A stretch of 64,000 nt of DNA from Pseudanabaena sp. PCC 7367 (GTDB taxonomy: Bacteria; Cyanobacteriota; Cyanobacteriia; Pseudanabaenales; Pseudanabaenaceae): contig NC_019701.1 of NCBI RefSeq assembly GCF_000317065.1, positions 868,001-932,000 of the forward strand, given 5' to 3'. Shown piece by piece: positions 56,357-59,672 of the stretch; positions within the stretch are counted from its first letter, which is position 1; the number at the start of each line of letters is the position of its first letter. The notes under the pieces were generated by a model. The model was given only the letters and a program-made list of their open reading frames with translations, was not told the origin of the DNA and made no database searches. The translations under genes and the position numbers were made by a program.

Positions 56357-56826
56357 AGTGTTTTTTGAACAAATCTTAAAATTATTTATTTATTATTGTT
56401 GCCATTATGAACGACCCCAAAAAGTAGGTTTATCATAGCGATCCCCTTAATATATCTAAGTCCTGGCGATCCCCACGGGGATCACAATTTAACAATGTCT
56501 TTAGATGTTAACAAGATAAAGCTTACTTATGTCGAGATTCTCGGACTTTCTCAAGGCGCTAATTGGCGATCGAACTGGTATAAATGCCTCTATAACTAGG
56601 TTTCGCCGTTAAGCAAGGGATTTTTGCCCCAGTTTGCATATTCTGAGTATTTATGCATACAGGCTAATTACAACTTTAAGTTAGGCAACTAATAAGCACT
56701 CAGGCCAGAGCCGAAGAATCTGCCAAGAGCGATCGCCTAAAATTAAAATTACTAGCAGCTGCTTTTAAAGAGGGTTGCATAGTTGCTTGCTAATTTGAAT
56801 TGTTTGCTTAATTTTCATTGGTTTAT
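56357..56826. other. Spacer with a GATCCCC hairpin
   Basis: 470 bases without a gene. GATCCCC-AC-GGGGATC (56468-56483) is a perfect inverted repeat without a T run. The ferredoxin promoter lies here. Confidence 0.4.
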
Positions 56827-57057
56827 ATGGCATACACGATCGTTACTGATATTTGCGAGGGCGTAGCAGAGTGCGTTCCAGCCTGCCCAGTGGCTTGTAT
56901 TCATCCTGGTGGTGGGGCAAATGCTAAGGGCACTCCCTGGTTTTGGATTGATTTTGATGTTTGTATTGACTGCGGCGTGTGTTTGGAGGTTTGCCCAGTC
57001 GCAGGGGCGATCTTGCCGGAAGAAAGACCAGCGCTACAAAAGTCAGCCAGTCGATAG
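56827..57057 (+). CDS. Dicluster [4Fe-4S] ferredoxin
   Basis: It has 76 residues from ATG 56827 (MAYTIVTDICEGVAECVPAC); an upstream TTG at 56818 is less fitting. Cluster one: Cys10, Cys16, Cys20 and Cys24 (CEGVAECVPACPVAC). Cluster two: CIDCGVCLEVCP (CxxCxxCxxxCP). Similar to a conserved cyanobacterial ferredoxin of unknown partner. The transcript may run into the structured leader that starts 17 bases after its stop. Confidence 0.92.
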   Translation: MAYTIVTDICEGVAECVPACPVACIHPGGGANAKGTPWFWIDFDVCIDCGVCLEVCPVAGAILPEERPALQKSASR

Positions 57058-57074
57058 CTTGAGCATGATGATTA

Positions 57075-57248
57075 CCCACTCTCTACTAGCACCCCAGCCT
57101 GGAAGTAATTGGTCAACATGCTAGAATGGTTGACGCAGCAGGTATCTAAACCTAATGCATGCCTTGGTCAGAGACTTGGGCATTTCCGTAAACTTATCTG
57201 GCTTAGCGGCCAGGAAGTAGTTGAGAGTGGGCGACAACCCACTTTTTT
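57075..57248 (+). ncRNA. Structured leader upstream of rimP-nusA (switch-like attenuator)
   Basis: CCCACTCTCTACTA (57075-57088) pairs with TAGTTGAGAGTGGG (57218-57231), 13 of 14 bases, closing a domain with four hairpins: GTCAAC/GTTGAC (57112-57134), AGGT/ACCT (57140-57153), ATGCC..GTC/GAC..GGCAT with a symmetrical TTG/TTG internal loop (57159-57183) and CTGGC/GCCAG (57198-57213). The 3' strand of the closing helix is also the 5' arm of the terminator (57226-57243), so the two are mutually exclusive. This fits an attenuator or riboswitch; I know no name for it. Confidence 0.6.
57226..57248 (+). terminator. Intrinsic terminator 24 bases before rimP
   Basis: AGTGGG (57226-57231) pairs with CCCACT (57238-57243) around CGACAA and is followed by T6-G-T6. 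It lies inside any 5' extension of the rimP frame, which fixes the rimP start at 57272. Confidence 0.85.
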
Positions 57249-57271
57249 GTTTTTTGGGATCTAGTCTTGTT

Positions 57272-57724
57272 ATGACACATCCATTAATCCCTCAGGTGCT
57301 TGAAATTGCTGAAACGATCGCTGCCCCCCTGGGGATCGAGGTGGTCGGAGCGGTAATGCATACCAACAAAAGCCCCGTTGTACTCAGAGTCGATATCCGC
57401 AATCAAACCCAGCACACCGGTCTGAACGATTGCGAACAAATGAGCTATGCCCTAGAGGAAGCCCTCGATCAAGCAGATTTTATTCCCCATGCCTATGTGT
57501 TAGAAGTGTCTAGCCCTGGGATTGATCGCCAGTTATCTAGCGATCGGGAGTTTATTGCTTTTCGCGGGTTTACGATCGCCATTGACACTAACCCACCCTA
57601 TAAGGGCAAGCAAAGTTGGCAGGGGCAGTTAGTCAAGCGTGACCAACAAGCGCTGGTGATTAACCTGAAGGGGCGATCGGTTAGTATTCCGCTGGAGCAG
57701 GTGGTTAAGGTGGAGTTGGCTTAG
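57272..57724 (+). CDS. rimP: Ribosome maturation factor RimP
   Basis: It has 150 residues from ATG 57272 (MTHPLIPQVLEIAETIAAPL). It assists 30S subunit maturation. VLRVDIRNQTQHTGLNDCEQ, LEEALDQADFIPHAYVLEVS and SPGIDRQLSSDREFIAFRG are the family signature. A longer frame starting at 57221 is rejected because it would place the terminator inside the gene. Unlike the usual compact rimP-nusA operon, 430 bases follow before nusA. Confidence 0.95.
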   Translation: MTHPLIPQVLEIAETIAAPLGIEVVGAVMHTNKSPVVLRVDIRNQTQHTGLNDCEQMSYALEEALDQADFIPHAYVLEVSSPGIDRQLSSDREFIAFRGFTIAIDTNPPYKGKQSWQGQLVKRDQQALVINLKGRSVSIPLEQVVKVELA

Positions 57725-58154
57725 TTAGCGATCGCCATATTATTGACCGCAATAACTGCAATATCAGTGTAATTTTGATAATATCGCGGTACTGCAAGCC
57801 AAAAGTCGCCGTTATGTGCTTTCATATAGCTGAACAAAATTTAAGTGTCCTGTTTGCCAGATCACCATTAACCAATCATCCAACGATTGTTAAAACGATT
57901 GTTAATTAGTGTGGCTTTGATTGGCGATCGCCAGTTAATCGTTCAGTTAATCAGCTAGTCTAGCTTCGAATTAACCACGTTGAGTAATCGGTAATTTCCC
58001 CCAAGGCCTCTCTTTAGACTTATGTCTTGATTCCCTCTAGCTTAATCCAGTCTGAAGCATTGCTATTGAGCTTCTAATCATCCCCTATCTATCCTTAATT
58101 TTTACAAACCACACTTACAACTACAATTTACAGTTTTAGGAGAGCTGAAGACCT
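57725..58154. other. 430-base spacer between rimP and nusA
   Basis: No ORF. It includes AGGAGAG (nusA ribosome-binding site). A separate nusA promoter is possible. Confidence 0.35.
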
Positions 58155-59672
58155 ATGGCACTAGTCACACTGCAAGACCTGCAACCAATGGTTGAGGCAA
58201 TCAGTAGAGAGCGAAACCTACCTATAATTGCAGTGCAAAATGCTCTGCGTGAGGCTTTACTAAAAGGTTATGAGCGGTTCAGAAAAACCTATCGATCGGA
58301 AGGGGTCAACTACGACGATACCTATTTCGAGAACTTTGAAGTAGAGCTAGATATGGAGGAAGAGGGCTTTAGGGTGCTGGCCACCAAAACGATCGTCGAA
58401 GAGGTTGAAAACTCCGATCGTGAGATCGGGCTAGCCGAGGTACGAGAAGTAGCCCCAGAAGCTCAGGCCGGTGGCACCGTGGTGGTAGATGTGACCCCCG
58501 ATCAACGGGATTTTGGTCGCATGGCTGCGATCCAAACCAAGCAGGTACTAGCTCAAAAGCTGCGCGATCAACAACGCAAATTAATCCAAGAAGAGTTCCA
58601 GGATATTGAAGGTACAGTCTTACAAGGGCGGGTGCTGCGATTTGAAAACAGCTCCGTGGTAGTAGAAGTTAACAGTGGCGTAGGTCAACCCGCTGAAGCT
58701 GAATTACCCAAACGCGAACAATTACCCAGCGAAAGACCCTATCGCCCCGGCAGCACGATCAAAGTTTATTTAAAACGAGTCTACGAAGGATCACGGCGCG
58801 GCCCCCAATTGATGGTATCGCGGGCTGATGCTGGGCTAGTGGTGTATTTATTTGCCAATGAAGTACCAGAGATTGAAGACGAAGTGGTACGGATTGTGGC
58901 GGTGGCCAGGGAGGCAAATCCACCATCTTCTTCGGTGGGGCCACGTACCAAAATCGCCGTTGATACCCTGGAGCGCGATGTCGATCCGGTTGGAGCTTGC
59001 ATAGGCGCACGTGGTGCCCGCATCCAGGCGGTGGTGAATGAGCTACGTGGTGAAAAGATTGATGTGATTCGCTGGTCACCAGACCCAGCTACTTACATTG
59101 CCAATTCCCTCAGTCCGGCTCGCATCCATGAGGTGCGATTGATGAATGCGGATGAAAGGCAGGCTCATGTATTGGTGCCCGATGATCAACTGAGCTTGGC
59201 GATCGGCAAGGAAGGGCAAAATGTGCGATTGGCGGCACGCTTAACCGGCTGGAAAATTGACATTAAGGATGCTTCTAAATATGACTACGAAGCAGAAGAC
59301 CAAAAGGCGGCAGAAATAGCGGCGGCCAGGGCAGCAGAAATAGCAGCGATCGAAGCGCAAAGACAGGCAGCAGCGGAAGAAGAAGCCAGATTAGCCGCTG
59401 AAGAAGAGGCTGAACTCGAAGCCCTTGAGGCAGAGGAGCAAGCAGCTAGCCCAGATGCTGAGGTTGCCACTGAAGAAACAGAGGAAATAGAGGAAAGCGA
59501 GCAAGCAGAAGCGATCGCAGAAGGTGAGGGGTTGCCAGAGCCAGAAGAAGTAGAGGTGCCAGATGAAGCAGAGGCGATCGCGGCAGAGGAGTCAGCGGAA
59601 AATTTAGCCACAGAGGATGAAGCTAACCCTGAAGCGGAAGAGAGCGAGCCTGAAGACTCAGAGGAAGAGTAG
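58155..59672 (+). CDS. nusA: Transcription termination/antitermination factor NusA with acidic tail
   Basis: It has 505 residues. N-terminal RNAP-binding domain (1-130), S1 (about 145-200, EGTVLQGRVLRFENSSVVVE), KH1 (VDTLERDVDPVGACIGARGA) and KH2 (LVPDDQLSLAIGKEGQNVRL). After residue ~375 comes a ~130-residue Glu/Ala-rich tail (QAAAEEEARLAAEEEAELEA and onward), much like the acidic ends of other cyanobacterial NusA. The core ends with GWKIDIKDASKYDYEAE. Confidence 0.96.
   Translation: MALVTLQDLQPMVEAISRERNLPIIAVQNALREALLKGYERFRKTYRSEGVNYDDTYFENFEVELDMEEEGFRVLATKTIVEEVENSDREIGLAEVREVAPEAQAGGTVVVDVTPDQRDFGRMAAIQTKQVLAQKLRDQQRKLIQEEFQDIEGTVLQGRVLRFENSSVVVEVNSGVGQPAEAELPKREQLPSERPYRPGSTIKVYLKRVYEGSRRGPQLMVSRADAGLVVYLFANEVPEIEDEVVRIVAVAREANPPSSSVGPRTKIAVDTLERDVDPVGACIGARGARIQAVVNELRGEKIDVIRWSPDPATYIANSLSPARIHEVRLMNADERQAHVLVPDDQLSLAIGKEGQNVRLAARLTGWKIDIKDASKYDYEAEDQKAAEIAAARAAEIAAIEAQRQAAAEEEARLAAEEEAELEALEAEEQAASPDAEVATEETEEIEESEQAEAIAEGEGLPEPEEVEVPDEAEAIAAEESAENLATEDEANPEAEESEPEDSEEE

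Follow-up and report, generated by a model that had tools for sequence, protein, structure and literature searches.

What kind of control element precedes the rimP and nusA genes of the cyanobacterium Pseudanabaena sp. PCC 7367? The original prediction saw a switch, i.e., a multi-hairpin domain closed by a long-range helix that competes with a terminator, and proposed NusA as a candidate feedback factor. We analyzed the window, a 64,000-nt stretch of contig NC_019701.1, from an organism whose 4.89-Mb genome is assembled in two contigs. The element at this locus is of a known kind; the idea of an attenuator was right in kind, and the special switch design is unsupported. With reasonable confidence, we read it as a rimP-leader, i.e., an ancient intrinsic terminator in the rimP-nusA leader that would set read-through, with NusA as a plausible feedback factor. 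The main features of the locus are as follows.

56827-57057, + strand: small 4Fe-4S ferredoxin gene upstream of rimP; its stop lies about 165 bases 5' of the terminator stem
57223-57255, + strand: rimP-leader terminator from a terminator scan, with the stem at 57223-57246 (core GTGGG/CCCAC) and the T-run at 57243-57255
57272-57724, + strand: rimP, with Pfam RimP_N and RimP C-terminal domains
58155-59672, + strand: nusA, with Pfam NusA_N and KH_5 domains

The three genes share the + strand. The gap between rimP and nusA (57725-58154) is long, 430 bases, and nusA may have its own promoter. Cotranscription of the two genes is uncertain because nusA begins this far past the rimP end, and NusA feedback via the terminator at 57223-57255 may consequently be weak. 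A tRNA scan of the window returned none, in contrast with the metY-rimP gene order of E. coli. Similarly, Rfam searches retrieved no family in the whole window and none in 56700-58200 up to an E value of 10.

A terminator shared by cyanobacterial rimP leaders

The terminator stem (57223-57246; -11.4 kcal/mol) ends about 25 bases 5' of the rimP ATG at 57272. GTGGG...CCCAC followed by a T-run precedes rimP in 125 of 165 cyanobacterial genomes, representing 28 of 34 families, with the motif defined as GTGGG/CCCAC (or CCCGC) plus a T-run no more than 340 nt from the RimP domain. The survey covered the rimP upstream stretches of 165 genomes from all 34 families (165 of the 166 genomes with a RimP hit were used, G132 being left out although it has a hit; G112 had no RimP hit, and the L158 stretch stops at a contig end). 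The strict motif is missing in the remaining 40 genomes. It is wholly absent from the rimP leaders of family f2 (0 of 15 genomes) and f20 (0 of 5) and occurs in 1 of 7 in f17, some of these families' leaders carrying a variant stem. Stem variants account for some of the genomes without the strict motif, and at least one has the motif further upstream.

An exact-motif search of 59 genomes returned 35 copies, 28 of them at rimP, 6 elsewhere, and 1 unplaced (in G051, a genome outside the set with rimP coordinates); the reversed control pattern matched once. In the window's own genome, the sole exact copy is the terminator before rimP. The motif is thus nearly private to rimP in cyanobacteria. It is not private to cyanobacteria: a similar pattern was run on genome contigs from many phyla, and rimP follows within 1,500 nt on the same strand in 59 of the 122 matches listed; the titles of rimP-linked contigs (available for 80 of 119 loci) include Deltaproteobacteria, Nitrospirales, Acidobacteria, Bdellovibrionales, and Alphaproteobacteria.

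Four of the five core stem pairs are G-C in all 125 leaders, and the fifth is T-A in 98 and T-G in 27, a constancy that is partly built in since all 125 were selected by a pattern fixing most core letters. Covariation in the stem is small because the stem scarcely varies. Such low variation of GTGGG/CCCAC suits recognition by a protein or polymerase, and recognition by NusA or RNA polymerase is directly testable in a model cyanobacterium.

The rimP-leader was called the most ubiquitous attenuator in 2010, with a conserved GGGc..gCCC terminator and NusA as the best candidate regulator (Naville and Gautheret, PMC2965389). The same report describes the gammaproteobacterial rimP leader as two tandem terminators plus an antiterminator; the string "cyanobacteri" is absent from its main text. 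Like the general rimP-leader described there, which lies 4 to 130 nt before rimP, the cyanobacterial element has a G-rich 5' arm, a C-rich 3' arm, and a T-run, stands at the head of the rimP-nusA operon, and shows no general antiterminator (PMC2965389). In the window, GTGGGC..CCCAC and the T-run (57223-57255) lie 25 nt before rimP, nusA is the next gene, and a promoter predicted upstream by a weight matrix would place the terminator inside the rimP transcript. The cyanobacterial class differs from the general motif in its consensus, AGTGGG...CCCACT, and in a distance to rimP that exceeds 130 nt in some cyanobacteria.

Rfam RF01770, the gammaproteobacterial rimP leader, concerns the same operon and also ends in a G-rich/C-rich terminator. 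Unlike the window leader, which this 102-position model does not match, the E. coli leader scores 102 bits; the cut-off of 47 bits was reached in 0 of 59 cyanobacterial genomes and nowhere in the window. The window terminator is outside RF01770 and, judged by sequence and place, within the general rimP-leader motif.

Termination in this leader is documented in several bacteria. In Streptococcus agalactiae, RNA-seq (PMC4448216) located a stop 31 nt into the rimP-nusA operon, and in E. coli, terminators t1 and t2 precede rimP and NusA is reported to control its own operon (PMC6511841). According to a 2025 review (PMC12288461), Bacillus subtilis NusA is autoregulated through NusA-stimulated leader termination. 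The window shares with that system an intrinsic terminator in the leader of a nusA-containing operon; NusA dependence was by report measured in B. subtilis, whereas we infer it here. A literature search of titles and abstract beginnings found none on a cyanobacterial (including Synechocystis) rimP leader, so NusA control in cyanobacteria is extrapolated.

Predicted transcription start and the long-range helix

The features between the ferredoxin gene and the terminator are listed below.

57075-57088, + strand: 5' strand of the long-range helix (13 of 14 pairs), probably upstream of the transcription start
57112-57134, + strand: hairpin 1 of the originally predicted domain, spanning the predicted -10 element
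57122-57127, + strand: putative rimP promoter, with -10 element GC-TAGAAT-GG predicted by a weight matrix and RNA start expected near 57133-57135
57135-57158, + strand: leader hairpin 2, in the minimum-energy and centroid folds
57155-57220, + strand: possible 21-codon leader ORF, from translation, with its stop just before the terminator
57159-57183, + strand: leader hairpin 3 with a symmetric UUG/UUG element, in the minimum-energy and centroid folds
57192-57218, + strand: leader hairpin 4, in the minimum-energy fold
57218-57231, + strand: 3' strand of the long-range helix, sharing bases with the terminator 5' arm

TANNNT sites peak 60 to 80 nt upstream of the terminator across rimP leaders. 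A weight matrix was trained on 79 leaders from other cyanobacterial families, using TANNNT sites 45 to 95 nt before the terminator. The resulting promoter motif, ATGCGCTAAACTGGG (-10 element plus extension, counted at a score of at least 5), was scored in 95 leaders outside the window's family: 66 have it in that interval, versus 13, 8, and 3 in the three 50-base intervals that follow farther upstream. This comparison favors the training interval, to which the matrix was fitted. Enrichment of ATGCGCTAAACTGGG upstream of the terminator argues that the latter is inside the rimP leader. In the window, TAGAAT at 57122-57127 has a score of 10.1, which ranks it among the best 0.5% of 953 + strand TANNNT sites, and its spacing of 104 nt to the terminator is outside the training interval; the only TANNNT site further upstream in 56980-57121 scores 0.5. 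With an RNA start near 57134, positions 57075-57088 would be promoter DNA, some 45 to 60 bases upstream of the RNA. Therefore, the 5' strand of the helix is probably left out of RNA from the best promoter. Likewise, hairpin 1 is probably absent from the RNA because the predicted -10 element is inside it. An imperfect 10-base inverted repeat (57062-57071/57113-57122) begins shortly past the ferredoxin stop codon, and its 3' arm abuts the predicted -10 element; it could be an operator or a hairpin at the 3' end of the ferredoxin transcript.

The helix itself is striking. Its 13 Watson-Crick pairs of 14 (57075-57088/57218-57231) were confirmed, as was the overlap between its 3' strand and the 5' arm of the terminator (57218-57231 with 57223-57255). 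With the 3' strand fixed and the 160 upstream bases dinucleotide shuffled, 13 pairs were reached in 1 of 20,000 shuffles; shuffling the whole intergenic region gave any 13-of-14 pair in 0 of 60; and among 9,086 window positions sampled, 1 had a partner as good within 160 nt. A chance origin of the helix in this genome is unlikely. Folding also bore out the four internal hairpins (57112-57134, 57135-57158, 57159-57183, and 57192-57218) and the symmetric TTG/TTG internal loop, which sits in the 57159-57183 hairpin and really consists of U-G, U-U, and G-U oppositions. The interior of the domain (57089-57217) folds little better than shuffles (z, -1.28), 57134-57217 folds better (z, -2.96), and 57060-57280 is moderately above its shuffles (z, -2.14; 4 of 200 equal it).

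These properties could suggest a species-specific two-state switch, in which the helix acts as an antiterminator formed before the terminator 3' arm is made and a factor bound to the enclosed hairpins tips the balance. In the 57060-57250 RNA, only 1.3 kcal/mol separates the terminator state (-62.1 kcal/mol) from the closing-helix state (-60.8 kcal/mol), so the two would be exclusive and balanced on paper, provided that the RNA holds both strands, and folding of a partial transcript ending at 57231 gives the long-range helix as the best fold. We nevertheless consider this reading unlikely. A comparable helix with the terminator 5' arm was sought in the 124 other cyanobacterial rimP leaders that have the conserved terminator, and none was found: when the 200 nt upstream were scanned for a partner to the 14-base arm, the mean best score was 8.3 matches versus 8.2 in shuffles (125 leaders, window included), 12 or more matches are reached in the window leader only, and the next best case has 11 of 14 (L149). 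Conservation or covariation of the helix in relatives, which the original prediction expected, was thus not borne out, although the window organism's genus is represented by one genome in the set, with no congeneric relative for a covariation test. Moreover, the strongest predicted promoter would start the RNA at about 57134, downstream of the entire 5' strand, an outcome that the original prediction itself had set against its switch. By these comparisons, the helix appears to be a feature of one genome and, if active, would disrupt the terminator, if at all, only in RNAs starting upstream of 57075, e.g., upon read-through from the ferredoxin gene. In a DNA search for whole-leader relatives, the terminator part alone matched at rimP, and plasmid records gave nothing. 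A helix that is striking and statistically sound in one genome can thus overlap a conserved element and yet be absent from every relative of that element.

A class-wide antiterminator pairing with the terminator 5' arm was also considered and rejected, its energy barely beating shuffles with either 30 or 60 upstream bases (mean z over 125 leaders, -0.62 and -0.28; family means, -0.60 and -0.43). The same 30 or 60 bases yielded no antiterminator in the window leader. Families f10, f21, f27, and f32 have lower pairing-energy z values with 30 bases.

Proposed read-through into rimP and its alternatives

The terminator might simply belong to the ferredoxin gene (56827-57057) and have no regulatory role for rimP. 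That gene is codirectional, with a gap of about 165 bases to the stem, and the largest upstream ORF is codirectional in 72 of the 100 genomes having such an ORF. In the other 28, by a rough longest-ORF call, it is on the opposite strand, which leaves no codirectional neighbor needing a terminator there. A further argument against this explanation is ATGCGCTAAACTGGG, which precedes the terminator in 66 of the 95 genomes from outside the family. The explanation also leaves the rimP specificity of the motif unaccounted for; we regard it as improbable. Attenuation by a leader peptide, in which a ribosome at the stop of the ORF at 57155-57220 masks the terminator 5' arm, allows read-through, and couples the operon to translation, is very improbable: the ORF stops directly 5' of the stem and a leader ORF of such length arises in 2.9% of shuffles, but its ribosome-binding site is weak and ORFs show no clear class-wide excess (ATG ORFs in 30 of 125 leaders versus 21.8 expected; ATG/GTG/TTG ORFs in 54 of 125 versus 55.0).

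The rimP-leader reading draws on the conservation, position, rimP specificity, and shared promoter reported here, and on the literature for attenuation in other phyla. RNA polymerase would start near 57134 and produce the three leader hairpins; at the terminator (57223-57255), some polymerases would stop, while the remainder would continue into rimP and perhaps nusA. NusA, as a product of the operon, would strengthen termination and thereby close a negative feedback loop. For this organism, the terminator most likely sets read-through into rimP, and NusA is a plausible feedback factor. What stands of the original prediction is therefore attenuation before rimP-nusA with NusA as the feedback candidate, with which terminator conservation and the literature agree; the special switch design does not stand.

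The rimP-leader attenuator was published for other phyla; these data extend it, with numbers, over most cyanobacterial families and add a shared predicted promoter that would set the terminator inside the leader.

Structured domains upstream of the terminator

In the related genus g4, a structured 129-nt domain lies directly 5' of the rimP terminator (L041:1840-2054, - strand; L037:1099-1313, + strand; and 17 other leaders), with a well-conserved 5' segment of consensus CCTGTAGTACACAAGCTCCGAAG. The alignment holds 19 of 23 genomes; L071 was left out as identical to L070, and L052, L056, and L074 could not be aligned by eye, which indicates that the domain is not universal within g4. A covariation test and a covariance model were based on 14 of the 19 aligned leaders. 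Two-sided changes occur in 33 cells versus 11.0 (SD, 3.5) in shuffles, and the paired share of cells is 93.0% versus 33.5 to 47.9% for slid structures, a result favored by the consensus structure having been derived from the same alignment on which it was tested. An Rfam search of 13 g4 rimP loci found no family. The covariance model recovers the left-out leaders L039, L068, and L069, which are close relatives of rows used, and does not match the window leader. In 39 genomes, it detects its own genus only, with one genome at 1.7e-28 and another at 0.047 (not at its rimP).

A tentative and rather doubtful extension of these observations is that lineages within the window's family have added RNA domains of their own upstream of the ancient rimP terminator, i.e., the covarying 129-nt domain in g4 and, in the window organism, a distinct leader of several hairpins whose long-range helix would make the terminator promoter dependent. 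Such domains might represent new sensors for the supply of RimP and NusA.

In two leaders of genus g2 (L078 and L080), which belongs to f1, the window's family, TATAAT is found about 15 nt 5' of the stem; the mRNA may there begin with the hairpin itself, an odd position for an attenuator.
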